Of a stretch of 64,000 nt of DNA, positions 41,848 to 58,123 are shown piece by piece. This stretch comes from Alphaproteobacteria bacterium. Lineage in GTDB: Bacteria > Pseudomonadota > Alphaproteobacteria > Sphingomonadales > Sphingomonadaceae. The stretch covers positions 1,798,001-1,862,000 of the forward strand of contig VBAC01000001.1 in NCBI GenBank assembly GCA_005883305.1. Direction: 5' to 3'. The notes beneath the pieces are model-generated. The model was not told the origin of the DNA. It saw only the letters and a list, made by a program, of their open reading frames with translations, and searched no databases. The position numbers and the translations under genes are program-made. The first letter of the stretch is position 1; every line of letters starts with the position of its first letter.

Positions 41848-44800
41848 CTAACGGATGTCGAAGCGAACGCCAACGCGGAACGCGGTTCCGAGCATGTCGC
41901 TGAAGGTGGGGTTAGCCGCCAGTCCGGTCTCGGGCAGCACGATCGGATCGGCGTCGAACAAATTCGTCACGTTGACGAAAAACTGTCCGTTACCGCGGCC
42001 CAGGGCATCGAAATTCACCGTCGCGTTGAGATCGACGTAGAATGTCCCCGATACATGATTGTTGTCGTAGGTCGGGAAGGCCGAAGCCTCCGCGGCCGTT
42101 CGTCCGGCGGGGCAGGTGCCGGGCGCGCATTCGATGCCGTTGGCGGCATAGCGGCCGGAGCTCACGCCGCGCCCGACGACGGTGATCGAGCCCTGCGGTG
42201 AATCATAGCCGGCGCTGACCCGGTAAATCCAGCTCGGCGTGCTGAACTGGCCCCCGTTCACCCCGGTCGTGTCGAGCACGGCCGCGCCGACGATGCCGGT
42301 GTCGATGATGTTCTCGAGATAGTGGGTCGCCATGCCGCGCAGGGTAAAGCTGCCTTGGGCTTCCGCCCAGACCCGGTTCAGCGGCAGCCGGTAGGTCGCC
42401 TCGAAATCGATGCCGCGCACCAGCCTGCGCTGGAAGTTGAACGGCTGGGTCTTGATCAGGACGCGGGTCGCGTTGGCCGGATCCTGGGTGATGGCGGTGC
42501 AGACGTCCTCGCGTCCCTGGAAGCAGAAATTGATGATGGTCTGCGCGCTGAGGCTGTCGATCGCGCCCTCGAGGTCGATCCGGAAATAATCCACCGACGC
42601 GCTGAAACCGGGGATGAATCGGGGCGTGAGGACGCCGCCGAGATTCCAGCTGTCGGCCTTTTCGGGCTCCAGGTTCAAATTGCCGGTGGCGAGCCCGGAA
42701 TAGCCGATGCTGGCTGTGTTGTAGACCACGCCGTTCAGCGGCGTGGCGGTGCCGGTCGCGGGATTGAAGAACGGGTTGTTGACCGAGTCGGTGTTCGCCG
42801 TGCCGGCGGCGAACAGCTCGTTGAGGTTGGGCGCGCGGATGTCCCGCGACCGCGTGACCCTGAGCCTGAAGTCGTCGATCGGCGACCAGGTCGCGCCGGC
42901 GCGCCAGGTCGTGACGTAGCCCGAGGTCGAGTAGTCGGTGGCGCGCACGGCGCCGTTGAACTCGAAGCCGAAGCCCAGCGGCACCACCGTCTCGAAATAG
43001 GCTTCCTTGACGCTGAAGTCGCCGTTTGACGGCAAGTAGTTGCCGACCGACCAGATGTTGGTGGTGCCGGTCGGCGTGATGATCGGCTGGAACTCGACGG
43101 GAACGAACCCCTGGATCTGCTCCTTGCGATACTCCGCGCCGATCGCCATGCTGACGTCGCCGGCCCAGGTCGCGAAAGGCGTGAACGACAGGTTGGCGCC
43201 GGTCACGAACTGTTCCACCACCTCATCGCGATAGGGGGCGCCAAGCACGTAGGAGATGGCCGCCGGATTGGCGACGCCGACGCCGAGGCGGTTCAAGGGC
43301 ACGCAATTGGGGTCGTTGTTGGTGGCGATCGCGTCGAGGTTGACCACGCACTGGATCGAGCCGACGGCGTAATTGCCCGGATTGCCGGCCTGGGCGAAGG
43401 CAACGCTGGTGGCGTTGGCCAGCCGCTGCGTGTGCATGATGTTGCGCAGCTGTTCGCGCAGATCGGCGCGCCCATATTGCCCATAGACGTCCCAATGCGC
43501 CTGGTGGTCGAACAGTCCGAACTCCCCTTGGGCACCGAGCACGTAACGCTGCACCTCGCGCGTGTTGTTGATGACCCGGTAGGGAAGGTCGACGGCGGTA
43601 GTGGCGAGGGTGACGCTGGTGATGCCCGTCAGGGTCGTCGGCCCGAGCGCGTTGTAGAGGAAGGCGTTGCAGGTGATCGGCGCAGCCGCGGCCGTCGCCG
43701 CGGTGCCGCAGCCGGTCGCGTTCAGGACCTGGCCGGTCGACAGGTTCGGGCCGGCGTTGAAGAACACCTCCTGCCAATTGTACGAGGCTTCGGCGAAAAG
43801 CGTGACATTGTCGGCGACGTCGAAGCTGAGCCGCCCGAAAATGCCGTGGCGATCGTCCTCGGCGTCGAGGCCGATGCGGCGGCCCGAATCGTTGACCCGC
43901 CAGCTGCCGCCCTGGGTCAGGGTCGGGGCGGCCGTGCCGGTGGGCACAGGGAATGTCAGCGCGCCATATTGATACTGGAGGACCCGGCCGCCCCCGCCGA
44001 AATAGATGCCGCGCAACCGGTTGGCGACTCCGCCCGCCGAGTTGGTGATGAGGCCGCCCGGCGTCGAGTTCGCCGCGCCGACCTGGAGCAGGGTGGTGAT
44101 GAATTGCGGATTGGCGCTGGCGGTCGTCCAGGTCGGGTCCTGGATGCGGACGTAGCCTCTCTGGTTCCAGTCGCGGTCGGAGACGTCGAAGATGCCGTCC
44201 TTATGCGCGATTTCGCCGCTGACCATGAAATGGCCGCGGCCTCCGGCGAAGGACGTGCCCCACGCGGCGTTGAAGGAATAGTTGAAGCCGTCGCCCCGCG
44301 AGGTGATGCCGGTGTCGCCTTCGAGATGCAGGCCCTCGAAGTCGTCATTGAGGATGAAGTTGACGACGCCGGCGACGGCGTCCGATCCATAGGAAGCCGA
44401 CGCGCCGCCGGTGACGATGTCGACCCGCTCGATGAGCGATTGCGGGATCGTGTTGATGTCGACCACGCCGGTGATCGTCGAGGCGACGGATCGCCGGCCG
44501 TTGATCAGGATGAGCGTGCGGGTCTCGCCGAAATTGCGCAGGTTGAGCGCGTTGATTCCGGCCTGCCCGCTGCTGATGTTGAGGCGCGAGTTGGACGGCC
44601 GGGTCGAGCCGGCGAGCGACGGGATCTGATTGACGAAATCGGCGATGTTGTTGGTCGGGGAGGTGTTCTCGATATCCGCCGCGGTCAGCACGGTGAGCGG
44701 GGTCGGCGCCTGATAGCCGTCGCGTACGACGCGGGTGCCCGTGACGACGATATCCCGGCGCTCCGCGTCGTCCGCCGGGGCCGCGGCCGTCTGGGCCGTC

Positions 44801-44916
44801 GCTGGGTCGGTGCCTTCGGCCGGCGCAGCCTGAGCCCGGGCGCTGCCGGAGAAAGCCATGGCGGTGAAGGCGGCGCCACAAAAAAGAACCGATTTCAGTG
44901 ACTTGGAAGCACGCAT
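41848..44916 (-). CDS. TonB-dependent receptor, large (peptide/oligomer-type plug)
   Basis: 1022 residues. Signal peptide (MRASKSLKSVLFCGAAFTAMAFSGSARA), TonB box-like RDIVVTGTRV, and plug domain with QIPSLAGSTRPSNSRLN, GINALNLRNFGETRTLILI and RVDIVTGGASASYGSDAVAG. The barrel ends FRVGVRFDIR. This Ala/Gly-rich plug type with VNGRR/INGRR-V is widespread in sphingomonads and xanthomonads and often takes up peptides or glycans; substrate not determinable. AAGGGGGGG precedes the start. Divergent from the AmpG-like permease gene. Confidence 0.92.
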   Translation of the reverse strand: MRASKSLKSVLFCGAAFTAMAFSGSARAQAAPAEGTDPATAQTAAAPADDAERRDIVVTGTRVVRDGYQAPTPLTVLTAADIENTSPTNNIADFVNQIPSLAGSTRPSNSRLNISSGQAGINALNLRNFGETRTLILINGRRSVASTITGVVDINTIPQSLIERVDIVTGGASASYGSDAVAGVVNFILNDDFEGLHLEGDTGITSRGDGFNYSFNAAWGTSFAGGRGHFMVSGEIAHKDGIFDVSDRDWNQRGYVRIQDPTWTTASANPQFITTLLQVGAANSTPGGLITNSAGGVANRLRGIYFGGGGRVLQYQYGALTFPVPTGTAAPTLTQGGSWRVNDSGRRIGLDAEDDRHGIFGRLSFDVADNVTLFAEASYNWQEVFFNAGPNLSTGQVLNATGCGTAATAAAAPITCNAFLYNALGPTTLTGITSVTLATTAVDLPYRVINNTREVQRYVLGAQGEFGLFDHQAHWDVYGQYGRADLREQLRNIMHTQRLANATSVAFAQAGNPGNYAVGSIQCVVNLDAIATNNDPNCVPLNRLGVGVANPAAISYVLGAPYRDEVVEQFVTGANLSFTPFATWAGDVSMAIGAEYRKEQIQGFVPVEFQPIITPTGTTNIWSVGNYLPSNGDFSVKEAYFETVVPLGFGFEFNGAVRATDYSTSGYVTTWRAGATWSPIDDFRLRVTRSRDIRAPNLNELFAAGTANTDSVNNPFFNPATGTATPLNGVVYNTASIGYSGLATGNLNLEPEKADSWNLGGVLTPRFIPGFSASVDYFRIDLEGAIDSLSAQTIINFCFQGREDVCTAITQDPANATRVLIKTQPFNFQRRLVRGIDFEATYRLPLNRVWAEAQGSFTLRGMATHYLENIIDTGIVGAAVLDTTGVNGGQFSTPSWIYRVSAGYDSPQGSITVVGRGVSSGRYAANGIECAPGTCPAGRTAAEASAFPTYDNNHVSGTFYVDLNATVNFDALGRGNGQFFVNVTNLFDADPIVLPETGLAANPTFSDMLGTAFRVGVRFDIR

Positions 44917-45084
44917 CGAATTATCCCCCCCTTGGCAGCAGCCAATCGGCATTAAGTAACAATAATCAGGCGGGCCGCCATAGTTTCTGTTGGCCAAGCC
45001 ATAACCTGCCGCCATCTTATGGGCGAAAGCGTCGCAGGCGTGATAGCCCGTAAAAAGCGGCCGCGTCGGGATCGGGGGAGGGCT

Positions 45085-46614
45085 ATGGCTTCACAAGCAA
45101 AGGGCAGCGCCGCGCCGGCCGGCCCGGTCGTGTCCGGAGGCATTGGCCGCCAGGCGCTCTACGTGCTGCTCGGCTTCTCGGCCGGCCTGCCTTTCTACAT
45201 GTTCTCGACCGTCCTCTCGCTGCGCCTCCAGGCGCACGAGGTGGGGCTGGTCGTCATCGGCTTCTTCGCCTGGGTGCAGCTGCTGCCGACCTTCAAGTTC
45301 CTCTGGGCGCCGCTCCTCGACCGCTACGAAGTGCCGGGCTTCGGCCGCTTCTGGGGCAAGAGGCGCGGGTGGATCATGCTCGCCCAGCTCGGCATCTTCG
45401 TCTCGATGGCCGTGATGGGGCTGACCTCGTCGGACGGGAATCTGGGCATCACGGCGCTGTTCGCGGTGCTGCTCGCCTTCTGGACGACGACCCTGGAAGT
45501 CGCCGCCGACGCCTGGCGGATCGAGCTCGCGCCGACCCAGGCGGAGCAAGGCCCGCTCGCCGCCGCCAATCTGTGGGGCTACCGAAGCGCGATGGTCGCC
45601 GCGGGCAGCGGCGCTCTGCTCGTCGCCGACCAGCCCGGCTTTGGATGGACCGGCGCCTATCTCGCAATCGCCTTCTTCGCCTTCCTGCCCTTCCCGCTGC
45701 TCGCCCTTATGCGCCCCGATCCGGGCCACGGCGGCGGCCGCGCCGGCGCGCTCGTCACGGGCCTGGGCGCGAGCGCGATCATCCTGGGTGTGTCCGCCGC
45801 CGCCGTCGGCGCGGTCGGCTGGCTGCTGCTCGGCGCCGCGTCGGCCATCGGCATCAGCGGGCAGACCAACGTCACCCCCTTCGTGCTGGCGGTCTGTATG
45901 GTGCCCTTCCTGGTCATGGCCGCGGCGCTTCCGAAAATCCGCAAGCTTCCGCCGTCGGCCCCGGCGCGGCGCTCCGTCGCGGTCGGCCCCTATGTCGACT
46001 TCTTCTGGCGCTACGGCTTCATGGCGCTGGCGCTGATGGCCTTCGTCTCGGTCTACCGAATGGGCGACGTGCTTGCGCTGAACCTGTCCAAGCCGATGAT
46101 CCGCGATCTCGGCTATTCGCTGACCGAGATCGGCCTCGCCGATTCCTATGTCGCGCTGATCGCGAGCATCGTCGGCGTCGGCCTCGGCGGCTGGATGGCG
46201 GCGCGCTGGCGGATGACATGGACCCTGGCGATCGGAGCCTTCTTCGCCGCGCTCGGCAATTTCGGCTTCGTCTGGCTCGCCCACCAGCCGGTGGACGGGA
46301 CCGCCCTCTATTTTGCCACTGCCGCGGACCAGTTCGGCAACGGCATGTCCGGGGCGATCTTCGTGGTCTATCTCTCGCTGCTGGTGAACCCCCGCTATCC
46401 CGGGGCTCAATATGCCTTCCTCTCCGGATTCGCCTTCCTGCTGCCGCGGCTGCTGTCCGGAGCGGGCGGCTCGATCGTCGAGGCGTTCGACCGCGCAGGC
46501 TATCGGGGTTTCGACCTTTTCTTCGTCATCACCGGCGTGGCCAGCCTGGCGGCACTGCTGTTCCTGCCGCTCATCGCAGGGGCCCGCCCCCGTCCCGCGG
46601 ACGACAGGCCATGA
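45085..46614 (+). CDS. ampG: AmpG-like MFS permease
   Basis: 509 residues, about 12-14 hydrophobic segments. AmpG markers: LGFSAGLPFYMFSTVLSLRL, FKFLWAPLLDRYEVPGFGRF, GKRRGWIMLAQLG and LEVAADAWRIELAP. AmpG carries anhydromuropeptides from periplasm to cytoplasm for cell-wall recycling. Start placed at ATG 45085 because GGGGGAGGG lies just upstream; an earlier in-frame start at 45019 is unsupported. It overlaps the S12 hydrolase gene (ATGA). The divergent TonB receptor makes import of external muropeptides conceivable. Confidence 0.87.
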   Translation: MASQAKGSAAPAGPVVSGGIGRQALYVLLGFSAGLPFYMFSTVLSLRLQAHEVGLVVIGFFAWVQLLPTFKFLWAPLLDRYEVPGFGRFWGKRRGWIMLAQLGIFVSMAVMGLTSSDGNLGITALFAVLLAFWTTTLEVAADAWRIELAPTQAEQGPLAAANLWGYRSAMVAAGSGALLVADQPGFGWTGAYLAIAFFAFLPFPLLALMRPDPGHGGGRAGALVTGLGASAIILGVSAAAVGAVGWLLLGAASAIGISGQTNVTPFVLAVCMVPFLVMAAALPKIRKLPPSAPARRSVAVGPYVDFFWRYGFMALALMAFVSVYRMGDVLALNLSKPMIRDLGYSLTEIGLADSYVALIASIVGVGLGGWMAARWRMTWTLAIGAFFAALGNFGFVWLAHQPVDGTALYFATAADQFGNGMSGAIFVVYLSLLVNPRYPGAQYAFLSGFAFLLPRLLSGAGGSIVEAFDRAGYRGFDLFFVITGVASLAALLFLPLIAGARPRPADDRP

Positions 46615-47627
46615 TCGACGAGGTGGCGGAACGGGCCTTCGCGCCCGCGGCACAGGCCGTCGCCGAAGGCCGGATTCCGGGTACGGCGCTCGGCATCGTG
46701 GCCGCCGACGGGCGGCGCGCCGTACGCCTCGCAGGGATGGCCGCGCTGATCCCGGAACCCGAGGCGCTGACGGAGAATCACTGGTTCGACCTCGCCTCGG
46801 TATCCAAGGTCATCGCCACGACAAGCATGATCCTGACGCTGGCGGAGCAGGGCCGGATCGGCCTCGACCGGCCGCTGACCGATGCGATCCCCGACCTTCG
46901 CCAATATGACGTCGCCAACGCCGCCGAACGGTCGCTGACCTTCCGCGACTGCCTTGCCCACCGCACCTTCCTTCCGGCGGTTGAGCCGATCTACACCTAT
47001 GGCAGCGATCCCGAGCGCCTGCGCGCCTTCGTGCTGCAGCGGGAGTGGCGCCACGGCCCGCCGGTCTATTCCGACATCAATTTCATCCTCCTCGGCATCG
47101 CAATCGAGCGGATCACCGGCGCGCCGCTGTCGGCCTGGCCGCTCGGGCCGGGCCTGAGCTACGGTCCGCCGCCCGGCCCCGCCGTCGCCACCGAGGCCTG
47201 CTCCTGGCGCGGCCGCGTGATGAAAAGCGAGGTCCATGACGAGAACGCATGGGCGCTTGGCGGCGCGCCGGGCCATGCCGGCCTGTTCGGGACGGTGGCC
47301 GGCGTGCTCGCCTTCGCCGCCGGTCTGCTCGACGGGAGCGGCGCCTCGCCATTCATGCTTCGGGCGATCCGAACGCCCGTGCACGAACACCGGACCTGCG
47401 GCTGGGAGCGGCGCTTCGCGGGCTGGCACGGCGGCGACGCCTGCTCCGGCGGGACGATCGGCCATACCGGCTTCACCGGCACCGGGCTGTGGGTCGATTT
47501 CGAACGCGGCCTCGCCTGGACCTTGCTGACCAACCGAGTCCACCCGACCCGCCATCGCGAGACCGGCATAGCGGAGCTGCGCCGCGCCACCGGCGATGCC
47601 GTCGTGGAGGCGTGGGACGCGGCTTAG
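46611..47627 (+). CDS. Serine hydrolase, beta-lactamase/S12 family
   Basis: 338 residues, no signal peptide. S12 motifs: S63-x-x-K66 (ASVSKV), Y-S-D in PPVYSDINFILLG as the YxN-type loop, and HTGFTGTG as the third motif. The family contains class C beta-lactamases, D,D-peptidases, D-aminopeptidases and esterases. Lack of an export signal and coupling to AmpG (ATGA) favour a cytoplasmic muropeptide or D-amino-acid peptide hydrolase over antibiotic resistance, as inference. A REP element follows. Confidence 0.85.
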   Translation: MIDEVAERAFAPAAQAVAEGRIPGTALGIVAADGRRAVRLAGMAALIPEPEALTENHWFDLASVSKVIATTSMILTLAEQGRIGLDRPLTDAIPDLRQYDVANAAERSLTFRDCLAHRTFLPAVEPIYTYGSDPERLRAFVLQREWRHGPPVYSDINFILLGIAIERITGAPLSAWPLGPGLSYGPPPGPAVATEACSWRGRVMKSEVHDENAWALGGAPGHAGLFGTVAGVLAFAAGLLDGSGASPFMLRAIRTPVHEHRTCGWERRFAGWHGGDACSGGTIGHTGFTGTGLWVDFERGLAWTLLTNRVHPTRHRETGIAELRRATGDAVVEAWDAA

Positions 47628-47779: not shown

Positions 47780-49249
47780 TTAATTCGCCTCGGCGATCAG
47801 GTTGAGGGCGGCGTCCATGAATCCGGTCGCGCTGACGTCGCCCGGCACGTCGTTGGCGTAGAATGAGAAGATCAGGGTCCGGCCGCTTCGGGCGGTCAAA
47901 TAGCCGGACAGAGCGTTGGACGCGTTGAGCGTTCCGGTCTTGGCGAACAGGCGCCCCTCCAGCGGGGTCCCGCGAAAGCGGCGGGCGAGCGTTCCGTCGA
48001 CCCCGGCGACCGGGAAGGTCGCCCGCCACGCCGCGCCCCAGGGCTGGGCGGCGGCCCAGCGCAGCAAAGTGGCGACCGCGCGGGGCGACAGGCGATTGTA
48101 GGTCGACATGCCCGAGCCGTCGGACAGGTCCCAGGCCGTCCGGGGCACGCCCGCTGACGACATCATCGCCGCGATCGCCGCCACGCCGTCCTCGATCGAG
48201 CCCGAGCCGGCGATCAGGCCGACGCGGCGGAGCATCAGCTCGGCATGCAGATTCTGGCTGACTTTGCTGATCAGAATCAGGTCCTCGGCAAGAGGCGGCG
48301 GAGTCAGCCGGGCCAGCGCCTCGGGCTCGCTCGGGCGAGTCACGGGCCGGTCGCCCCGGCGCGCCGGATCGTCGCCGTCGCGCGCGAAGGGCCGGTGGCG
48401 CGCCTCGGCGTCGCCAGTGACCCGAACGCCCCGCGCTTCGAGCAACGTGCGCAGGCGCCAGGCCGCGAAATGGGCCGGGTCGTCGATGCCCATCCGAAGC
48501 GTCTCCGGCTCGGCGCCGACGGCGATCGTTCCGGTGAGCCGCAGGACGCGGCTGTTCGGCATCCGCTCGAACTGCAGCTCGGTCGTCCCCGCCGCCGCCG
48601 TCGTCGCGAGATTGGTCACCTCGTAATAAGGCAGCATGTCGAGCGCCGGGCGTTCCCCCACCGCTCCGGGGGTGACCCGAATTGCCAGCTCGTTGTCGTC
48701 GAGGGTCAGCGCCGAAACGCCGGTGCCGTAGCGGCTCTGGATATTGTTCCAGCTCATCCCCGGGCTCCAGCGCTGGTCCGGGAACAGGCTGTCGTCGCCG
48801 ACGACGTTGCGCACGCGCCGGGTCCGCGCGGCCACCGCGTCGGCCAAAGCGGCGAGGCAATCCACGGCGCAATCCGGCGCGCTCGACAGCCGGGCGTCGC
48901 CATGGCCGGCGAGGATCACGTCGGGCGACCGCCGGCTCCCGTCGAGCCGCACCGAAGCGCCGCCGGCGGCGTCCGGCCGGTCGAGCGCGGTCATGTTGGC
49001 GAAGGCCGCGGCGGTGGTCAGCATCTTGGTGTTGGAGGCCGGGATGAAGCGGGCGTCCGGATTGACCGCGACCAGCTCACGCCCGTCCTCGGTCGTCACC
49101 ACCAGGCCGAAGCGCGTGCCCGCCGGAGCGGCGGCCAGGCCGGCCTCGACCCGTTGCTGCAGCGGCGCCTGCAAAGCGTGAGCGGGCGAAACCGCGGAGA
49201 TGGCGACCGCCAGCAAGGCGATGCGCAGTGGGGAATGGGGAGCCGGCAT
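47780..49249 (-). CDS. dacB: D-alanyl-D-alanine carboxypeptidase, PBP4 type
   Basis: 489 residues, S13 family. Signal peptide to about residue 25 (AHA), catalytic S72-x-x-K75 (PASNTKM), second motif region DGSGMSTYN and third motif KTGTLN near 437. The long insertion domain between the first and second motifs is present, as in PBP4. It trims or cleaves peptidoglycan stem peptides in the periplasm. Convergent with the S12 hydrolase gene and divergent from the S9 peptidase gene. Confidence 0.92.
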   Translation of the reverse strand: MPAPHSPLRIALLAVAISAVSPAHALQAPLQQRVEAGLAAAPAGTRFGLVVTTEDGRELVAVNPDARFIPASNTKMLTTAAAFANMTALDRPDAAGGASVRLDGSRRSPDVILAGHGDARLSSAPDCAVDCLAALADAVAARTRRVRNVVGDDSLFPDQRWSPGMSWNNIQSRYGTGVSALTLDDNELAIRVTPGAVGERPALDMLPYYEVTNLATTAAAGTTELQFERMPNSRVLRLTGTIAVGAEPETLRMGIDDPAHFAAWRLRTLLEARGVRVTGDAEARHRPFARDGDDPARRGDRPVTRPSEPEALARLTPPPLAEDLILISKVSQNLHAELMLRRVGLIAGSGSIEDGVAAIAAMMSSAGVPRTAWDLSDGSGMSTYNRLSPRAVATLLRWAAAQPWGAAWRATFPVAGVDGTLARRFRGTPLEGRLFAKTGTLNASNALSGYLTARSGRTLIFSFYANDVPGDVSATGFMDAALNLIAEAN

Positions 49250-49383
49250 CGGGGCAGCCTAGGGCACATCCGGCCCGGGGCAATACGGCATCGCTCATTC
49301 CGAGCGTTCGCGCCGCTATAACGGCGGGGCATTTAGCCCAGGCGGCACTTGCCAGGCGGGCGCGCCGGCCTCAATCCAGGGCG

Positions 49384-51435
49384 ATGAAGAAGCACCTCCT
49401 CGTACGACTGTGGCTCATGGCGATCGGCCTTGCGCTCCTGCCCTCGGCCGCCGCCGCCCAGCGCGACCCGTTGGCCGAAGCCCTCGCCCTCCCCGTCGCG
49501 AGCGGCCTTGCCGGCGCTCGCGACGTGCCGCGCTTCGCCTGGATCGTGAACGAGGCCGGCGTTCGCAACATCTGGGTGGCGACGCGCGGCGTGCCGGCGC
49601 GGCGCCTGACCGCCTTCACCGAGGATGACGGGCAGGAACTGTCCGAAATCGCCCTTAGCAACAACGGCGCGAGCCTCGCTTTCGTTCGCGGCGGCGACGA
49701 GGAGTTTCCGGACCAGGAGGACCTGCCCAACACCGGCGCCGCGCCCTTCACGCCGCCCCAGCAGGTGTTCGTGGTCTCCGCCAGTGGCGGCGACGCGTTG
49801 GCCGTCGGCCAGGGCCATTCGCCCAGCTTCTCGCCCGACGGCGGGCGACTGGCCTTCACCCGCCGGGGCGAAATCTGGCTGTGGACGCGCGGGAGCGAGG
49901 CGCGGCGCATCGCCAAGGTCGGCGGAAGCATCGGCCGTCTCACCTGGTCGCCGGACGGCACCCGATTGCTGTTCTCGGAGGATCGCGGCGAGCACAGCCT
50001 CGTCGCCGTTCTGGACGCGGATGGCGAGCGCCTGCGCTATCTCGATCCCGGCCTCGGCCAGTCGATCGAGCCTGTCTTCTCTCCGGACGGCCGCCAAATC
50101 GCCTTCATCCGCTATGTATCGCCGCCCGCCGGAGCGGCGGCCGACAGTGGGCCTTATTGGTCGATCCGGCTGGTCGACCTCGCCACCGGCGAGGCGCGCA
50201 CGCTCTGGACAGCGCCGGCCGGCCCGGGTGGGCGCTATTACGGGACCCGAAGCCGCAACCTGTTCTGGAGCCGAAGCGGGCTGATCCTCTTTCCCTGGGA
50301 GCGGACCGGCTGGCTTCACGTCTACGCGCTCGACGCGCAGCGGGGCGGCACGCCGCGCGCCCTGACCGCCGGCGCCTTCGAGGTCGAGACCTTCCTGATC
50401 GATCCGGCACGCGACGATCTCCTCTACGCTGCCAATGCCGGCGATATCGACAGCCGCCACATCTGGCGCCGGCCGCTGGGCGACGGCGCGCCGCTGCGAT
50501 TGGGCGGCGGCGATACGATGCAGTTCGCTCCGACGATCGCGGGCGATTCGGTCGCCGCAATCGCGACGAGCGTGTCCAGCCCGGCCCATCCCGTCCTCCT
50601 CGGCGCGCGCGAGACGCCGCTCGCGCCCGTCCCCACCGCTTCGGGCTTCGCCGCGCCCGAGGTGGTGACGTTTCGCGCCGAGGACGGAGTCGAGGTTCAC
50701 GGCCAATATTTCCGCGCCCGCGGCCCGGGCCGCCATCCGGCGCTGGTCTACGTCCACGGCGGCCCGCGCCGGCAGATGCTGCCCGGCTTCCACACATCCG
50801 GCTATTATTCGAAGACGTATATCATGAACCAGCACCTCGCCGCGCTCGGCTATGACGTGCTGTCGGTGAATTATCGCAGCGGCACCGGCTATGGGCTCGC
50901 CTTCCGCGAGGCGGCGGAGACCGGCCGCGAGGGCGCGTCGGAATATCGCGACATCCTCGCCGCCGGGCGCTGGCTTGCGGCGCGGGGCGATGTCGACCCG
51001 GCCCGCATCGGCGTGTGGGGCGGGAGCTGGGGCGGCTATCTCACCGCGCTCGCTTTGGCGCGCGACAGCGGCCTGTTCGCGGCCGGCGTCGATCTTCATG
51101 GTGTCCACACCATGCTTCGCCCGGTGCCCAACTCATTGTCGCCCCAGGCGCAGGAACGCGCGCGCCAGGTCCAGTGGGACTCCTCGCCGCTCGGCGCGAT
51201 CGATCGCTGGCGCTCGCCGGTGCTGCTGATCCACGGCGACGACGACCGGAACGTCGACTTCTCCCAATCGCTGCTCCTGGCGCGCGAGCTGGCCGCCCGG
51301 CACATCCCCTATCGCGAGCTTGTCTTCCCCAACGAGCGCCACAGCTTCTTCCGCCACGACAACTGGCTCCGCGCGCTGCGCGCCGCGGAGGAGTTCCTCG
51401 ATCTTACGGTGATGCGCCGGCAACCGCTGCCCTGA
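49384..51435 (+). CDS. Exported S9-family prolyl oligopeptidase/dipeptidyl peptidase
   Basis: 683 residues. Signal peptide (MKKHLLVRLWLMAIGLALLPSAAAA), a beta-propeller-like region with repeated SPDGxRLxF-type blades (about 60-420), and a C-terminal alpha/beta hydrolase domain. Catalytic triad: S548 (WGGSWGGYL), D621 (HGDDDRNV) and H653 (NERHSFF). Acts on short peptides in the periplasm or at the surface. ATG at 49384 begins the signal peptide; the longer frame to 49228 is not supported. The role in peptide scavenging alongside its neighbours is inferred. Confidence 0.9.
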   Translation: MKKHLLVRLWLMAIGLALLPSAAAAQRDPLAEALALPVASGLAGARDVPRFAWIVNEAGVRNIWVATRGVPARRLTAFTEDDGQELSEIALSNNGASLAFVRGGDEEFPDQEDLPNTGAAPFTPPQQVFVVSASGGDALAVGQGHSPSFSPDGGRLAFTRRGEIWLWTRGSEARRIAKVGGSIGRLTWSPDGTRLLFSEDRGEHSLVAVLDADGERLRYLDPGLGQSIEPVFSPDGRQIAFIRYVSPPAGAAADSGPYWSIRLVDLATGEARTLWTAPAGPGGRYYGTRSRNLFWSRSGLILFPWERTGWLHVYALDAQRGGTPRALTAGAFEVETFLIDPARDDLLYAANAGDIDSRHIWRRPLGDGAPLRLGGGDTMQFAPTIAGDSVAAIATSVSSPAHPVLLGARETPLAPVPTASGFAAPEVVTFRAEDGVEVHGQYFRARGPGRHPALVYVHGGPRRQMLPGFHTSGYYSKTYIMNQHLAALGYDVLSVNYRSGTGYGLAFREAAETGREGASEYRDILAAGRWLAARGDVDPARIGVWGGSWGGYLTALALARDSGLFAAGVDLHGVHTMLRPVPNSLSPQAQERARQVQWDSSPLGAIDRWRSPVLLIHGDDDRNVDFSQSLLLARELAARHIPYRELVFPNERHSFFRHDNWLRALRAAEEFLDLTVMRRQPLP

Positions 51436-51463
51436 AGCATGATCGTCCAAGACCGATTCATCT

Positions 51464-51545
51464 CGTCATTGCGAGCGAAGCGAAGCAATCCAGAGCAGCC
51501 TCGGAGGCCGATGGATTGCCGCGTCGCTTCGCTCCTCGCAATGAC
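51464..51545. repeat. REP-type palindrome, CGTCATTGCGAGCGAAGCGAAGC family
   Basis: CGTCATTGCGAGCGAAGCGA at the left is the inverted match (small gaps) of TCGCTTCGCTCCTCGCAATGACG at the right, with AGCAATCC/GGATTGC further in. Third REP family in the window; lies between two convergent stop codons. Confidence 0.78.
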
Positions 51546-51568
51546 GGTTCGGTCAAAACGATTGCGTT

Positions 51569-52399
51569 CTACAGGTAGTGCGGCCCGCCCCGCTCGCGCA
51601 GGTCCTCATAGTGAACCAGCGCCGGCTCCGGGCCCAGCGGCACGGGCCGGCCGTCGCGGAAGGCCCATTCGCCGCGGTCGCAATCGCCGGCGCGGACGTA
51701 GCCGTTGATGTAGAAGCGGCGCAGATGGTCCGAGCGGTTCGGGCCCGAGCCATGGACCAGATAGGGGTTCCACAGAACGAGGTCGCCGGGATCGAGCACG
51801 AGCCGGATCGCCTCCGCGGCCGAGAGGCCCACGCGCTCCAGCGCCGAGTCGGACATCGCATTGCCCAGCACGTCGCTGTCCGTGTCCAGATCGAGGTCGC
51901 CCTGCAAATGGCTTCGCGGAACGAAGGACATGCCCCCGGATTCCGGCCGGTGCGGATCGATCGCGAGCCCGGTCTGGACGTAGGCGGTGCCGAGGTTGCG
52001 GTAGCAGTCGGCGGGCACTCGGAAGCGCGAATCCTGGTGCCAGGCGAAGTCGCCTACGGCCCCCGGCGCCTTCCAGTGGATCTGGTTGATGATCTGCTTG
52101 ACGTCGCGCCCGATCAGCGGCTCGAGCAAGGCGGCGAAGCGGGGATCGAGGCGCACCGCGTCGAGCGCGGGGCGGTGGTAGGAGGGCCATTGCACCATCT
52201 GCACCAGCGGTCCGCCGGGCCCTTGCGCGATTTTGTAGAAGAGATTGCCGTGGCGGAAGCTGCGGCCGTGCGCGACCCCCTCGGCATGGACGGCGTCGAT
52301 CTCCGCGCCGATCGCGGTGATCTCCCGGGAGCTGAAGAAACCGCGGACGATCGCGTAGCCGTCGCGATGCCAGGTGGCCGGATCGACTGGTTCAATCAT
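51569..52399 (-). CDS. Phytanoyl-CoA-dioxygenase-family Fe(II)/2-oxoglutarate oxygenase
   Basis: 276 residues. Double-stranded beta-helix with iron ligands H121 and D123 (WHQDSRF) and H216 (LVHGSGPN), and the 2-oxoglutarate Arg in LRRFYING. GGMSFVPRSH is family-typical. Members hydroxylate diverse small molecules, including free amino acids and ectoine. It is the last gene of the minus-strand LysR-DgcN-DgcA operon, overlapping the symporter gene by eight bases, so an amino-acid-related substrate is plausible. Confidence 0.87.
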   Translation of the reverse strand: MIEPVDPATWHRDGYAIVRGFFSSREITAIGAEIDAVHAEGVAHGRSFRHGNLFYKIAQGPGGPLVQMVQWPSYHRPALDAVRLDPRFAALLEPLIGRDVKQIINQIHWKAPGAVGDFAWHQDSRFRVPADCYRNLGTAYVQTGLAIDPHRPESGGMSFVPRSHLQGDLDLDTDSDVLGNAMSDSALERVGLSAAEAIRLVLDPGDLVLWNPYLVHGSGPNRSDHLRRFYINGYVRAGDCDRGEWAFRDGRPVPLGPEPALVHYEDLRERGGPHYL

Positions 52400-53642
52400 C
52401 GTCCGAAGAGCGAAGGACGGCGTCGTCCAGTTCCCCCTCCCACCGCGCGATGGTGGTCGCGACGGTGAGATTGGCGCTCGCGCTCGGCACCGTGCGGGTC
52501 ATGTCGAGCAGCCGGTCGAACGGGAGGACGAAACCGACCACCAGAGCGGTCTGTTCCGGAGCGATGCCGACCGAGGAGAGAACCGCCGCCAGCATGAACA
52601 AGGAGGCCGACGGCACGGGCGCCGTTCCGAATGCCGCCAGCGCGCCCGTCAGCAGAACGAGCCCGTAGACGACCGGCGTCGGCTCCACTCCCAGCGCCTG
52701 CAGGCTGAACATGCTGAGCAGGCCGACATACATGGCCGTGCCGTCCTTGCCGATGCTTGCCCCGAGCGGAAGCACGGTGGAATAGATCGGCCGGCCGAGG
52801 CCGAGGTTGCGCTCGGCGACACGCATCGCGACCGGCAGGGTCGCCGAGCTGGAAGCGGTCGAGAAGGCCACCGCCAGAGCGTCGATGATGCCGCGGAAGA
52901 AGGGGCGCAGCGGAACCCGCGCGGCGAAGCGCAGCAGCAGCGTGTGAACCAGCAGGATCTGGATCAGGGAGCCGAGCGCTACCGCCAGCGCCAGCCAGCC
53001 GACATTGACGAAGACGGTCGCGCCGTTCGCTGCGACCGCTCCGGCGATCAGCGCGAACACGCCGAACGGAGTCGCTTCCATGACGATGGCGACGATCTTG
53101 AGCAGGACCGCCGTTGCCGACTGGAGCAGGTCCGCGAACGGCTTGCCCGCCTCCCCCGCCACCAGGGGGCCGATTCCGAGCAGGATGGCGACGAAGATGA
53201 TCGCCAGCATGTCGCCCTTCGCCAACGCGTCGAAGATGTTGACGGGGACGATGCCGATCAGCTGCTCGTAGGGCGTCGGCGGCGCGCCGATGGCGTGCGG
53301 CGCGGCGGTTCCGAGCGGCGCCCCTTCGCCGGGCCGGATCAGGCTCGCCACCGCCATCCCGACGGACACGGCGACGGCGGTGGTGAAGGCGAACAGGGCG
53401 ATCGTCCGCCCGCCGATCCCGCCAAGCCGCTTCGGGTCGCCGAGCGTGGTGATCCCCGCGGCGATCGTCACCAGCACGATCGGCACGACCAGCATCCGGA
53501 TAGCGCGCACGAAAAGGTCGCCGAGAAACTGCACCCAGGGCGCCGCCGCGGGCCAGAAGGCGCCGAGGAGGAGGCCGAGCGCCAATGCGGCCAACACCCG
53601 CTTCCACAAGGGAATCGCGAACCAGCGGCGCAGCAGGGTCAC
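52392..53642 (-). CDS. Dicarboxylate/amino acid:cation symporter (DAACS, GltP-like)
   Basis: 416 residues, about eight helices plus two hairpin loops. Family signatures: serine-rich STASSSATLP in HP1, VLPLGASIGKDGTAMY in helix 7, and GFVLPFDRLLDMTRTVPS near the end (Asp/Arg ligand-binding region). Family members take up glutamate, aspartate, C4-dicarboxylates or neutral amino acids with Na+ or H+. Coupled to the D-aminoacylase gene by ATGA; probable importer for the amino acid handled by DgcN/DgcA. Confidence 0.92.
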   Translation of the reverse strand: MTLLRRWFAIPLWKRVLAALALGLLLGAFWPAAAPWVQFLGDLFVRAIRMLVVPIVLVTIAAGITTLGDPKRLGGIGGRTIALFAFTTAVAVSVGMAVASLIRPGEGAPLGTAAPHAIGAPPTPYEQLIGIVPVNIFDALAKGDMLAIIFVAILLGIGPLVAGEAGKPFADLLQSATAVLLKIVAIVMEATPFGVFALIAGAVAANGATVFVNVGWLALAVALGSLIQILLVHTLLLRFAARVPLRPFFRGIIDALAVAFSTASSSATLPVAMRVAERNLGLGRPIYSTVLPLGASIGKDGTAMYVGLLSMFSLQALGVEPTPVVYGLVLLTGALAAFGTAPVPSASLFMLAAVLSSVGIAPEQTALVVGFVLPFDRLLDMTRTVPSASANLTVATTIARWEGELDDAVLRSSDDD

Positions 53643-55192
53643 GGGCAGGTTCCGGCGGTCGGCGTGTGCGCCAGCCCGCGCCCGGCGGCGGCTCCGGTCA
53701 GCGCGCCATCGTCGACCGCCAGCGCGCCGTTGACGAGCACCGTTCGAACGCCCGCCGCGAGCAGGGTCGGCTCCTCATAGGTCGATCGTGCCGCATAGGT
53801 TTCGGGGTCGAAGACGACGATGTCGGCAAAGGCGCCCGCCCGCAGCCGCCCGCGGTCAACGAGCCCGAACGTGTCGGCGGTCAGCGATGTGCTTCGCTCG
53901 ATGAACGCGCGCAGGCCGATCACGTGGAGCCTGCGCACATATTCCGCATATTTGCGCGCGAAGCTGCCGAACGCGCGCGGATGCCCGCCGGAGGCGTCCG
54001 AGCCGGTCATCACCCAGGGCCGGCGCATGAAGGCGGCGATATCCTCCTCGGTCTGGTTGAACGATGCGACGCTCGTATCGTCGACGCGGATCACGGCGAT
54101 CGCTGCGGCAACCGGATCGAGCCCGAGCGTCCGCGCCGCCTGGGAAAGCCGCTGCCCCCGATATTGGCCTTCGCTGATCAGCAGCGAGTCCGCGCCGCCC
54201 CGCCGGCGAAGATTTTCCGTCATGTCGGCGCGCAGGCGCTCCGCCACGCTGGAATCGTCGAAGCGGCGGAGCAGCGCCGGCCGGCCGCCGTCGTGCGCCC
54301 AGCGCGGCACCAGCGCGGCGGCGAGGCTCGTTCCCGACGCCGACCAAGGATATTGATCGGCGGTGACCCGCTGCCCGGCCGCCCGCGCCGCCTCGATCCG
54401 GGCGATGATCGCCGGGGCCTGGCCCTGGACGTCGACTCCGAGCGCCTTGATATGGGAGATGTGGACCGGCAGCCGTCCCTCGCGGCCGATGGTGATCGCC
54501 TCGTCCACCGCCGCCGCGAGCCCGATCGAATAGGAAGATTCGTCGCGCAGGTGACTGTCGTAAACGCCGCCCCGCACACCCGCTTCCTGCGCCAGCGCGG
54601 CCACTTCCCCGGTCGTCGCGAAGCTTTGCGGCGCGTAGAACAGGCCGGTCGAAAGGCCGAGCGCGCCCTGGCACATCCCCGCCGCGACCATCTGCCGCAT
54701 CCGCGCCAGCTCGTCGGCGGTGGGCGCCCGGTCCGCGTCGCCGATCACCGCGCGGCGGACCGTGCCGAAGCCCACATAGGCGGCATAGTTGATCCCCACG
54801 GGCCGGCCCTGGGCGCTGCCGAGCACTGCCGCGACGTCCAGATCGCCCCCGCCGTCATTGCCGATGAAGGCGGTCGTCACCCCCTGCATGAGGAAAGCGG
54901 GGACCAGCCGGGTCCGGGCGTCGGCATCGGCCAGCTGATCGCCGACATGGGTGTGGGGATCGATGAATCCGGGCGCGACGATCATGCCGTGCGCGTCGAT
55001 CACCCGCGCGGCCGAAAGGGATAGATGCGGGCCAACGGCGCGGACGCGCCCGCCGGAAATCGCGACGTCGCCGACGAAGGCTGCGTCCGATCCGGTATAA
55101 ATGGTGCCGCCGCGGATGATCAGATCGACATTCTCCGGCGGCGCGGCCGCGCCGAGGAGCGCCGTGGCGAATAGAAGCCCCAACAATTTCAT
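53639..55192 (-). CDS. N-acyl-D-amino-acid deacylase (D-aminoacylase family)
   Basis: 517 residues. Lipophilic leader MKLLGLLFATALLGAAAPP suggests export. The amidohydrolase core has H80-x-H82 in PGFIDPHTH, a metal-site region GGVYDSHLRDES, VHISHIKALG and the terminal-Asp motif MTGSDASGGHPRAFGS. The family frees D-amino acids from N-acyl forms or cleaves D-amino-acid-containing peptides. Start fixed by the ATGA overlap with dgcA (ATG 55192). It lies between the DgcA-like epimerase and the symporter genes, consistent with producing a free D-amino acid in the periplasm for uptake. Confidence 0.9.
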   Translation of the reverse strand: MKLLGLLFATALLGAAAPPENVDLIIRGGTIYTGSDAAFVGDVAISGGRVRAVGPHLSLSAARVIDAHGMIVAPGFIDPHTHVGDQLADADARTRLVPAFLMQGVTTAFIGNDGGGDLDVAAVLGSAQGRPVGINYAAYVGFGTVRRAVIGDADRAPTADELARMRQMVAAGMCQGALGLSTGLFYAPQSFATTGEVAALAQEAGVRGGVYDSHLRDESSYSIGLAAAVDEAITIGREGRLPVHISHIKALGVDVQGQAPAIIARIEAARAAGQRVTADQYPWSASGTSLAAALVPRWAHDGGRPALLRRFDDSSVAERLRADMTENLRRRGGADSLLISEGQYRGQRLSQAARTLGLDPVAAAIAVIRVDDTSVASFNQTEEDIAAFMRRPWVMTGSDASGGHPRAFGSFARKYAEYVRRLHVIGLRAFIERSTSLTADTFGLVDRGRLRAGAFADIVVFDPETYAARSTYEEPTLLAAGVRTVLVNGALAVDDGALTGAAAGRGLAHTPTAGTCP

Positions 55193-56181
55193 GTCCGCGA
55201 GCTCCCCCAAAATCCGGCTTCCGGCGGATGGATGAAGCCGCCGTCCATCCCGATGCCGCCGGGGCGATCCTCAAGGAGCCAGACGGGACCGTCAAGGTCG
55301 ACGAAATCCGACATCATCGCGAGATGCAGCGCCGGCGCGATCGACAGTGACGAGCTCACCATACAGCCGGTCATCAACCCGAGCCCCCGCGCCCGTGCGG
55401 CCTTCGCAAGCGCGAGCGCGGCGGTGAGCCCGCCGGCCTTGTCGAGCTTCACGTTCACTGCCTGGTAGCGTCGCGCGACGACCTCCAGATCGGCGGCGAC
55501 GTGGACGGATTCGTCGGCGCAGATCGGAACCGCCGGGGTGAAGCCTTCCAGCCAGTCGTCCGAACCGGCGGGCACCGGCTGCTCGATCAGGGCGACCCGC
55601 GTTTCGACGAGCACCGGCTGCATCCTGTCCAGCAACGCCCGGTCCCAGCTCTCATTGGGGTCGACGATCAGCTCCGCCCCCGGCGCCGCCGCCCGCACCG
55701 CGCGGATCTGCGCCTCGGGGTCGTTCGCGTCGACCTTGATCTTCAGCAGCGGCGCCTCCTCCAGCATCGCCGCCCGGGCCATAGCGCCGGGCGTGTCGAT
55801 CACCACCGTCATCGCGCTGGCCACGGGCCGCAGAGCCGGTCCGCCGATCATCGCCGCCACGTCGCGGCGCGAAAGCCTGGCCTCCAGATCCCACAGGGCG
55901 CAATCGATCGCGTTGCGCGCGGCCCCGGCGGGCAAAGCGTCGAGGAGCGCGGCGCGCCCTCCCCCCTGCTCGATCATCGGGCGGACCTCGTCGATCGCCG
56001 CCAGCGCGCCCTCGATCGTCTCGCCATAGCGCGGGTAGGGCACGGCCTCGCCGCGCCCGATCGCGCTGCCCTCGCCGATGGTCACCGTGACCACGTCGGC
56101 CGCCGTCTTCGTTCCGCGCGCAATGCGGAACGGACGGATCAGAGGGAAGCGATCGTGCTGGGCCTGGAGGGTACGGGACAT
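55189..56181 (-). CDS. dgcA: Enolase-superfamily epimerase, DgcA/L-Ala-D/L-Glu epimerase type
   Basis: 330 residues, muconate-lactonising subgroup. Catalytic Lys pair in LLKIKVD (K147/K149), metal ligands D174 (IVDPNESW), E200 (LIEQP) and D223 (CADESV), and the second lysine in KLDKAGG. The group includes dipeptide epimerases of cell-wall recycling and DgcA, the N-acetyl-D-glutamate racemase. Adjacency to a DUF1611 gene, as in the DgcN/DgcA pair, favours the latter. ATG 56181 gives a 43-base overlap with the upstream gene. Confidence 0.87.
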   Translation of the reverse strand: MSRTLQAQHDRFPLIRPFRIARGTKTAADVVTVTIGEGSAIGRGEAVPYPRYGETIEGALAAIDEVRPMIEQGGGRAALLDALPAGAARNAIDCALWDLEARLSRRDVAAMIGGPALRPVASAMTVVIDTPGAMARAAMLEEAPLLKIKVDANDPEAQIRAVRAAAPGAELIVDPNESWDRALLDRMQPVLVETRVALIEQPVPAGSDDWLEGFTPAVPICADESVHVAADLEVVARRYQAVNVKLDKAGGLTAALALAKAARARGLGLMTGCMVSSSLSIAPALHLAMMSDFVDLDGPVWLLEDRPGGIGMDGGFIHPPEAGFWGSSRT

Positions 56182-57170
56182 AGATATTCGATGATGGGAT
56201 CGACGCCGAAGGCGACCGGATCGGTACAGGGAAGGCCCATCTTGTCCGCGGACGATGCGCACAGCCGGCGGGCGGCTTCGGGTTCCATGCCGGAGGTGTT
56301 GAGGCAAATGCCTACCCCCCGCACGTCGCGGCTGGTCAGCCGCGCCGCGGCGAGGTTGGCCTCAAGGCAGTCCGCAAGATCCGGGACGGCGCGGCCGGGA
56401 ACGCCGCGAATATGGGCCCGGCCGGGCTCGTCGCACAGGACGAGGGCCTTTGGCTGAGCACCGTGGAGGAGCCCCAGAGACACGCCGGCGAAAGAAGGGT
56501 GGAAGAGAGAGCCCTGCCCCTCGATCAGATCCCATCCGTTGTCGCCGCGCGCGGGTACCAGCTGCTCGATCGCGCCGGAAATGAAGTCCGCCACGACGGC
56601 ATCGACCGCCACGCCCTGGCCGGCGATCAGGATCCCGGTCTGCCCCGTCGCCCTGAAATCCGCTCTTACGCCGCGTGCGCGCAGCGCTCGGGTCAGCGCG
56701 ATCGTCGTCACCATCTTGCCGACCGAGCAATCCGTTCCGACGGTCAGAAGGCGGTTGCCGAGCCGCTCATGACCCTTGCCGACTGTCAGGCCCGAAGGCG
56801 GATCGCGAACGTCGAACAGCCGCAGATTCCGCTCCTGCGCGAGCGCGGCGAGAGACGGCACGTCGCGCAACCGCTGGTGCAGGCCCGACGCCACGTTCAG
56901 TCCGGCGTTCAGCGCCGCCGCCGCATCGGCGACGAGATCGGCCCCGAGCTCGCCGCCGGCCCCCGCTATGCCGAGGACCAGTGTTCTCGCCCCCGCGGCG
57001 ACGGCCTCCTCCATGCCCATCCGCGGCAGATCCAGAGTCAGCGGGCAATCGTCGTGGCGAAACTCACCGACGCAATCCTCGCCGCGAAACATCGCCACGC
57101 CCCGCGACGTCTTGATCGCGAGCGGATCGCTGGTGTGCCCCAGATAGAGAAGGTATGGCGCCGGGATCAT
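56139..57170 (-). CDS. dgcN: DUF1611 protein, DgcN-like (D-glutamate N-acetyltransferase)
   Basis: 343 residues. Family N-terminus YLLYLGHTSDPLAIKTSRG, then a DgcN/MurNAc-like middle and a P-loop-like GTDCSVGKM (145-153) followed by FRATGQTGILIAG and DLIEGQGSLFHPSFAGVSLG. DgcN was shown in marine bacteria to acetylate D-glutamate, which DgcA then racemises. Start placed at ATG 57170 where family members begin; GTG 57191 is an alternative. The function here is by homology and context, not demonstrated. Confidence 0.85.
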   Translation of the reverse strand: MIPAPYLLYLGHTSDPLAIKTSRGVAMFRGEDCVGEFRHDDCPLTLDLPRMGMEEAVAAGARTLVLGIAGAGGELGADLVADAAAALNAGLNVASGLHQRLRDVPSLAALAQERNLRLFDVRDPPSGLTVGKGHERLGNRLLTVGTDCSVGKMVTTIALTRALRARGVRADFRATGQTGILIAGQGVAVDAVVADFISGAIEQLVPARGDNGWDLIEGQGSLFHPSFAGVSLGLLHGAQPKALVLCDEPGRAHIRGVPGRAVPDLADCLEANLAAARLTSRDVRGVGICLNTSGMEPEAARRLCASSADKMGLPCTDPVAFGVDPIIEYLCPVPSRPSTIASL

Positions 57171-57238
57171 CGCCCCAAGGCTAGCCCGCACCCCCGGCGT
57201 CCGCGCATATCCATGCGGCGGCGCGCCATAGCCGCGCG

Positions 57239-58123
57239 CTATGGAATATCCAGGACCTGCTTGAGCGTCTTGAGGAACTCGGTCGCCAGCGCGCCGAGCG
57301 GCCGATTGTTCAGGAACATGGCGTGAATGTCGAAGGTGATCCGCGGCTTCAGCGGCCGCATTGCGAGGCCGGGCGCGAGGCAGGCCTGGGCCGTGAAGCT
57401 GTCGATCACCGTCATTCCCACGCCGTGGCGGACCAGGGCGCCGGCGATGTAGAAGGTGCGCGCGGAGATCACGTCGTCCAGTTCGATGTTCAGCCGCTCC
57501 AGCTCCTCGGTGAAGAGCCGCCCCGTCGGTCCGCTCGCGGCGAGGCTGATGAAGCGCTTGCCCTGGAGCCTGGTCAGCTCGATGCAGGGCGGGGCATCCG
57601 GCATGTCCTCCTCACGATAGAGCACCACGAGCTCGCCTTCGCCGACCCAGCGCTGGGCGATCGGGGCTGCCGGCGGCACCTGATAGGCGATCGCGATGTC
57701 CGTCTCGCGTTCGTGGAGCTTTCGCAGCAGATCGTCGTGGTGGACGGTCTGCAGATCGAACTTCACATTCTCATGCGTCCGCAGAAAACGCGCGACGGCG
57801 GTGGGAATGGCGTCGAGCGCGAGCGACGGAAGCGCAGAGATGCGCAAGGTTCCGCCGGCCCCGCGGCGAAGGTTCCGACCTGCCTCGCGCAGCGCGTGGA
57901 CCCGGTCCTGGATCTCGCGGACCTCGACGAACAGCAAATGCGCGTCCTGGGTCGGCACCAGCCCGCCATTGGTGCGCTGGAAGAGCTGGAATCCGAGCAG
58001 GCTCTCCGCGTGGCGAAGCATCTTCGACACCGACGGCTGCGACACGTTGAGCGCGCGCGCGGCCGCGCTTACGGAACCGTTGACGTAGACGGCGTGGAAA
58101 ATCTCGATGTGGCGCAGATTCAT
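57239..58123 (-). CDS. LysR-family transcriptional regulator (DgcR-like position)
   Basis: 294 residues. N-terminal winged HTH (LRHIEIFHAVYVNGSVSAAA, LNVSQPSVSKMLRHAE) and a LysR effector domain. It is the first of the minus-strand series, 68 bases upstream of the dgcN-like gene, and the DgcN/DgcA pair elsewhere is controlled by a LysR regulator (DgcR), so it is its likely activator. It is also divergent from the efflux operon (273-base gap); control of that operon cannot be excluded. Confidence 0.9.
   Translation of the reverse strand: MNLRHIEIFHAVYVNGSVSAAARALNVSQPSVSKMLRHAESLLGFQLFQRTNGGLVPTQDAHLLFVEVREIQDRVHALREAGRNLRRGAGGTLRISALPSLALDAIPTAVARFLRTHENVKFDLQTVHHDDLLRKLHERETDIAIAYQVPPAAPIAQRWVGEGELVVLYREEDMPDAPPCIELTRLQGKRFISLAASGPTGRLFTEELERLNIELDDVISARTFYIAGALVRHGVGMTVIDSFTAQACLAPGLAMRPLKPRITFDIHAMFLNNRPLGALATEFLKTLKQVLDIP

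Follow-up and report, generated by a model that had tools for sequence, protein, structure and literature searches.

We analyzed a 64-kb window of DNA from the family Sphingomonadaceae (Alphaproteobacteria bacterium, GCA_005883305.1, contig VBAC01000001.1, positions 1,798,001 to 1,862,000), together with loci of its relatives and 298 genomes of the family, and identified a six-gene operon in which a symporter and a putatively exported deacylase probably extend the DgcN-DgcA route outward, drawing D-glutamate from acylated or peptide sources. On balance, and with somewhat better than even confidence, we favor a D-glutamate scavenging operon situated inside a wider uptake regulon. The six genes are open and lie in series on the minus strand (positions 51569-58123), as proposed in a preliminary description of this DNA, and each exceeded the curated Pfam cut-off of the family named for it. 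The first gene encodes a LysR-type regulator (57239-58123; HTH_1 and LysR_substrate), the candidate regulator of a conserved box described below. It is followed by dgcN (56139-57170), whose product has the N and C domains of DUF1611 and belongs to the D-glutamate N-acetyltransferase family; dgcA (55189-56184), encoding an enolase-superfamily racemase/epimerase (MR_MLE; NF042940); a gene for a putatively exported, D-aminoacylase-like amidohydrolase of the N-acyl-D-amino acid deacylase fold (53639-55192; Amidohydro_3); a gene for an SDF/DAACS acidic amino acid symporter (52392-53642; SDF); and a gene for a PhyH-family Fe(II)/2-oxoglutarate oxygenase that seems accessory (51569-52399; PhyH).

Gene content, order, conservation, co-occurrence and box placement were established by computation. 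Start codons were chosen by conservation, which placed the start of dgcN at a conserved ATG (with GTG at 57191 as a possible alternative) and gave overlaps of 46 bp between the DUF1611 and enolase-superfamily genes, 4 bp between the latter and the amidohydrolase gene, 4 bp between the amidohydrolase and symporter genes and 8 bp between the symporter and PhyH genes. These four overlaps join the last five genes, in agreement with the earlier claim of five overlapping genes, and a gap of about 47-68 bp separates the LysR gene from dgcN. The order LysR-dgcN-dgcA-deacylase was found again in 12 of 20 loci fetched from the genus, with protein identities of 66-93%, and the arrangement is therefore not due to chance; the full six-gene set, with PhyH adjoining the symporter, was found in 4 of these 20. 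We also surveyed 80 named dgcN loci, selected as the best of at least 589; contig ends interrupt some of them. In this set dgcA lay immediately downstream of dgcN in 70 loci and a LysR match of any identity was present in 52.

The DUF1611 protein scored 486.3 bits against the NCBIfam DgcN equivalog NF041892 (cut-off 480), and the G, D, C, G and K residues of its GTDCSVGKM motif were invariant in 81/81 copies. The enolase-superfamily protein scored 423.7 bits against the DgcA model NF042940 (cut-off 400), with the catalytic KxK, D-E-D and K residues invariant in all 71 aligned copies. The same protein remained below the cut-off of the L-Ala-D/L-Glu epimerase equivalog NF011708 (300.4 compared with 343), on which the E. 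coli K-12 control YcjG (L249:4931-5893) reached 677. These data support the assignment of the two proteins as DgcN-type and DgcA-type at the family level, as previously suggested, and the linkage of dgcA to dgcN suggests that DgcA may act as an N-acetyl-D-glutamate racemase. Some of the dgcN matches in six genomes of the family (G035, G064, G067, G246, G297 and G298) had one internal stop codon. One locus, on a 1.67 Mb contig whose record names an actinobacterium (Arthrobacter sp. TPD3018, QDFQ01000001.1; L075), carried a sphingomonad-type island; in the tree of DgcA proteins it grouped with Sphingomonas species, and the record label looks wrong.

The amidohydrolase matched the N-acyl-D-amino acid deacylase fold group over its whole length, in both fold and sequence, and its N-terminus contained a hydrophobic stretch resembling a signal peptide (crude scan and reading by eye). 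Among the 298 genomes, dgcN was present in 45 and the deacylase gene in 41 of these; 4 genomes had dgcN only and 10 the deacylase only. The two genes were within 6 kb of each other in 37 of the 41 genomes holding both. The deacylase is thus truly coupled to dgcN, and this linkage supports the earlier proposal that deacylation is joined to dgcNA. Residues K249 and R406, which we take to be ligands of the alpha-carboxylate, were invariant in 67/67 deacylases, and the lysine aligned with K250 of the Bordetella N-acyl-D-glutamate deacylase 3gip.

Uptake is likewise represented in the operon, whose symporter retains site residues for acidic amino acids. The arginine equivalent to R397 of GltPh was invariant in 32/32 copies and the aspartate equivalent to D394 was present in 31/32; the numbering and roles of the GltPh substrate-site residues R397, D394, N401 and D405 are assumed here. 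A GltS glutamate symporter gene was found near dgcN in 11 of the 80 named loci, all of which have titles that place them in Xanthomonadales; the one copy scanned scored 336.4 against the GltS equivalog (cut-off 310.75), and one of these loci (L086) also had a distant SDF match. A gamma-glutamyltransferase gene was present near dgcN in 14/80. The occurrence of two unrelated glutamate transporters beside dgcN argues for glutamate as the solute. A 2025 report (PMC12502697) describes gltS mutations that lower the D-glutamate requirement of a Vibrio fischeri auxotroph.

Alignment of the LysR-dgcN gap across 24 loci revealed a dyad, ATARC-N5-GYTAT, of the T-N11-A form. In the window it reads ATAGC-N5-GCTAT (57228-57242), overlaps the LysR stop codon and lies 57 bases from the dgcN ATG. 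We counted the box in 1.93 Mb of sequence from the 100 loci left after removal of duplicates, with the expectation taken from first-order Markov resampling; this analysis revealed 79 exact boxes compared with 0.8 expected, 70 of them at most 320 bp in front of a tested gene. An exact box lay upstream of dgcN in 47/99 copies, penicillin acylase in 8/16, the TonB-dependent receptor in 8/33, LysR in 3/66, DAACS in 2/44 and gamma-glutamyltransferase in 1/12, and was found upstream of none of the GltS (11) or DgcA (88) copies in this set. The 75 loci outside motif discovery contained 55 exact boxes, 25 of them before dgcN, compared with a mean of 2.4 sites and 0.27 before dgcN for 59 permuted half-sites; the largest permuted values were 20 and 8, the latter given by a half-site with one form in common with the box. 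The box upstream of dgcN occurs in both Alpha- and Gammaproteobacteria.

A LysR gene precedes dgcN on the same strand in 30 named loci; the box there was exact in 21, had one mismatch in 7 and was absent from 2. Upstream sequence sufficed in 78 of the 80 named loci for this survey, which also identified exact boxes before dgcN in 5 loci with a deacylase gene in front of it and in 8 with none of the tested genes there. These boxes, with no tested LysR gene directly in front of dgcN, show that the motif does not simply reflect the reading frame of LysR. The presence in the locus of a LysR protein of at least 40% identity was associated with an exact box before dgcN: 38 copies had both, 15 the LysR only, 9 the box only and 37 neither. 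The 12 whole genomes searched contained 31 exact sites, of which 17, spread over 11 genomes, were no more than 12 kb from dgcN. Two of the genomes (G012 and G017) had a single exact site, at dgcN, and 4/5 and 3/4 of the exact sites of two Luteimonas genomes fell in or next to the island. A sequence with one mismatch to the box (45001-45015) lies in the gap that separates the TonB receptor gene of the window from ampG and is a possible to probable second LysR-type box: it was found in 7 genus loci, the window included, inside a conserved stretch of about 60 bp that lies on the TonB side, and was not found in three others (L246-L248). In Dyella and Rhodanobacter loci, genes for M61-type peptidases and for TonB receptors (one protein of each kind scanned) also had an exact box upstream, and in one further locus (L102:6813-9721) an exact box lay between the divergent genes of an M81/MlrC-type metallopeptidase and a class IV aminotransferase. 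MlrC acts in the degradation of microcystin, a D-glutamate-containing cyclic peptide.

In the scheme we propose, for which we infer every substrate, every reaction and the binding of the box by this LysR protein, the exported deacylase would free D-glutamate outside the cytoplasm from N-acyl-D-glutamate or L-Xaa-D-Glu peptides. A dipeptide with C-terminal D-glutamate is chemically an N-acyl-D-amino acid, D-glutamate is a component of peptidoglycan, and peptidoglycan breakdown is a possible source of such peptides. The SDF symporter would import the D-glutamate, DgcN would acetylate it, and DgcA would racemise N-acetyl-D-glutamate to N-acetyl-L-glutamate, which might be taken on by a deacetylase encoded elsewhere or by arginine synthesis. 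The LysR protein would control the operon by binding the T-N11-A box upstream of dgcN. Copies of the box also precede, in some relatives, the gene of a TonB receptor or of a penicillin acylase-type hydrolase and, in one copy, that of a gamma-glutamyltransferase; this placement before further uptake genes suggests that the operon forms the inner section of a regulon for the uptake of D-glutamate-containing material. More tentatively, and with confidence a little short of even, we propose that in Sphingomonadales, Hyphomonadaceae, Caulobacteraceae, Xanthomonadales and some Vibrionaceae a single group of LysR-type regulators acting via ATARC-N5-GYTAT might govern a dedicated system that harvests D-glutamate, from outer membrane to cytoplasm, out of cell-wall or natural-product peptides. 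The parts, variable by lineage, would be a TonB receptor, exported amide hydrolases (of the penicillin acylase, D-aminoacylase or gamma-glutamyltransferase kind), a glutamate symporter, DgcN and DgcA.

Several results weigh against a scavenging operon for D-glutamate or against its regulon. The 31 exact sites in the 12 whole genomes compare with 47 for a reversed-pattern control, so the whole-genome total is not raised; the genome analyzed here has 2 exact sites (one at dgcN) compared with 4 reversed, the Sphingomonas jeddahensis genome (G697) has no exact site, and the 2 window hits at up to one mismatch are unremarkable (0.98 expected). The case for the box lies in its placement and conservation, not in its count in one genome. 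Within the 100 loci an exact box lay upstream of only 1 of 65 deacylase copies, and no exact box of their own was found for AmpG (18), the serine hydrolase (23), DacB (32), S9 (14) or PhyH (12). The LysR matches in Gammaproteobacteria were mostly about 30% identical, and the regulator there may therefore be another. DgcN clears its cut-off by 6 bits only. At the positions of GltPh N401 and D405 the window symporter has Ser and Asn (25/32 and 28/32 copies), which makes it an SDF relative whose site is changed from that of the sodium-coupled aspartate transporter GltPh. In the deacylases, Asp (62/67), Gly (3) or His (2) replaces the presumed metal-binding Cys of D-aminoacylase, and R297, the only candidate arginine for the D-glutamate side chain, is kept in 37/67; the alignment with 3gip, in which we assume that Arg295 binds this side chain, ends at residue 291, short of that residue. 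For the last step, 12 M20-type matches were found in the genome, 8 of them over the cut-off and candidates for an N-acetyl-L-glutamate deacetylase, and none was assigned. The DgcA assignment is weakened by YcjG, which reached 424.1 on the DgcA model (cut-off 400) next to 423.7 for the window protein and branched among dgcN-linked DgcAs in a quick FastTree of 80 proteins, and by a DxD motif, presumed to bind the ammonium group of a dipeptide, that was invariant in 71/71 aligned DgcA copies. Because YcjG matches the model equally well and the same residues are kept, we assigned the DgcA reaction through its partner dgcN. DgcA labels taken from NF042940 alone may therefore include dipeptide epimerases: the model by itself cannot separate an N-acetyl-D-glutamate racemase from the classic dipeptide epimerase, which bears on label-based surveys.

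These similarities to YcjG fit murein-dipeptide recycling, in which DgcA would be an L-Ala-D/L-Glu epimerase acting on imported cell-wall L-Ala-D-Glu and DgcN would have another role, as does an island shared with AmpG, DacB and a serine hydrolase. However, the window protein falls 43 bits below the epimerase cut-off that YcjG far exceeds, the adjacency of dgcN would be needless for a dipeptide epimerase, and the operon has an exported enzyme of the D-aminoacylase fold with a symporter for amino acids, not peptides. We consider recycling unlikely, and marginally more so than the scavenging of another or several D-amino acids (e.g. D-Asp or D-Gln), with D-glutamate one substrate among them. Such a broader diet, itself unlikely in our view, would agree with the poorly conserved arginine of the deacylase and with the single box between aminotransferase and M81 peptidase genes, but not with the recurrence of the glutamate-linked GltS and gamma-glutamyltransferase or with the equivalog status of the DgcN model.

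The preliminary description had also fused the oxygenase to the pathway. If it were a real step, it might hydroxylate D-glutamate or N-acetylglutamate, or clear a modified D-amino acid. The HxD, H and R residues of the protein, presumably the iron triad and the 2-oxoglutarate arginine, were invariant in 26/26 copies, and its structure model had a predicted local distance difference test score (pLDDT) of 89.2. Its distribution points elsewhere. PhyH was present in 13 of the 45 dgcN genomes, absent from 32 at the threshold used, and present in 8 genomes that lack dgcN, so that of the six-gene neighbourhood the deacylase is kept with dgcN and the oxygenase is not. No dgc gene, deacylase or such symporter was found near PhyH orthologues at 15 loci of the family sample (L152-L166) or at 15 loci of other Alphaproteobacteria. 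No neighbour family of these lone orthologues was common to more than 5/16 or 3/15 loci, and 71 columns were invariant across operon and lone copies alike. The companion of PhyH is not dgc but an S9 peptidase gene with a signal-peptide-like start (49381-51435, plus strand; Peptidase_S9): both were present in 11 islands, S9 only in 1, PhyH only in 0 and neither in 22, and in the 80 named loci S9 was found in 4 and PhyH in 3. A catalytic role for the oxygenase in the pathway is thus quite improbable; PhyH seems to be an accessory gene of the island, not a step of the D-glutamate route, and may have entered together with S9. One island (L151, genome G134) contained deacylase, PhyH, S9, DacB, serine hydrolase and AmpG genes with no dgcNA in that stretch, the dgcN of this genome being about 350 kb away. 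At three loci from one alphaproteobacterial group (L228, L231 and L233), PhyH orthologues lay near a putative Asp/Glu-racemase-like protein and a DadA-like oxidase (read by eye).

Yu et al. reportedly described the DgcN-DgcA pathway of D-glutamate catabolism in 2023 (ISME J, doi 10.1038/s41396-023-01364-6). The window operon resembles it in having dgcN followed directly by dgcA, both over their NCBIfam equivalog cut-offs, and differs in holding an exported deacylase and an SDF symporter, and in a LysR-type box that stands before further uptake genes in relatives. Compared with D-aminoacylase 1m7j and with 3gip, the window deacylase has a predicted signal peptide, Asp at the position of the metal-binding Cys and a shorter loop after it, and Arg295 of 3gip has no clear conserved counterpart. 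The E. coli ycjG-mpaA-pgrR-mppA region similarly combines a DgcA-like epimerase and a regulator (PgrR, which we take to be of the LysR type) with cell-wall peptide genes; in contrast, no dgcN or D-aminoacylase gene was present within the 12 kb examined there, and on the epimerase model YcjG scores 677 and the window protein 300. In the marine gammaproteobacterium NOR5-3, a TonB-dependent receptor is also linked to an N-acyl-D-amino acid deacylase, and the part of that report available (PMC3400609) does not mention a link to dgcNA or a shared box. The LysR-type box upstream of dgcN, shared with uptake genes in relatives, is new here. In the available parts of the published accounts, D-amino acids are assigned to the resistant fraction of dissolved organic matter (PMC10845958, PMC12363236) and the DgcN-DgcA route is described from intracellular D-glutamate onward. 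The arrangement in the window proposes how D-glutamate may be freed and imported ahead of this route, and the box makes the gene set predictable and testable.

Neither the box nor the wider island was included in the preliminary description. Beyond S9, the island contains a DacB/PBP4-type D-Ala-D-Ala carboxypeptidase gene (S13; 47780-49249, minus strand; TIGR00666 210.7, cut-off 107.8; 22/80 named loci), a serine hydrolase gene of the beta-lactamase fold (46611-47627, plus strand; Beta-lactamase; 14/80) that overlaps ampG, an AmpG-family muropeptide transporter gene (45085-46614, plus strand; TIGR00901 333.4, just below the cut-off of 350; 13/80), a TonB-dependent receptor gene (41848-44916, minus strand; Plug and barrel; 30/80) and, at the far end, a penicillin acylase-family hydrolase gene (37021-39384, minus strand; Penicil_amidase; 14/80). 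The receptor start at 44916 was placed by reading of the signal peptide; the open frame reaches 45015. In the genus the order TonB-AmpG-serine hydrolase-DacB-(S9-PhyH)-DAACS-deacylase-DgcA-DgcN-LysR was found repeatedly, with losses, and the 80 named loci contained DgcA in 71, the deacylase in 40 and DAACS in 31. Sphingobium sp. SYK-6 (L053) is another carrier of the cluster. Relatives carry a further island amidohydrolase between S9 or DacB and the operon (L035:3116-4960, L040:5453-7405 and L028:14009-15916), one of which gave a weak Xaa-Pro dipeptidase match; only 133 bp are present at 51435-51569 of the window, and the gene therefore seems lost from this place. The TonB receptor gene adjoins lysA (40511-41785); no other lysA in the genome exceeded the cut-off of the family, and lysA also lies beside the island TonB receptor in four genus relatives (L239, L240, L242 and L243). 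A 3-hydroxy-D-aspartate aldolase-like PLP (pyridoxal phosphate) enzyme is encoded at 39381-40598 (312.7 bits, below the cut-off of 690), and homologues of it (49-54% identity) were identified upstream of LysR in three loci (L029, L042 and L044).

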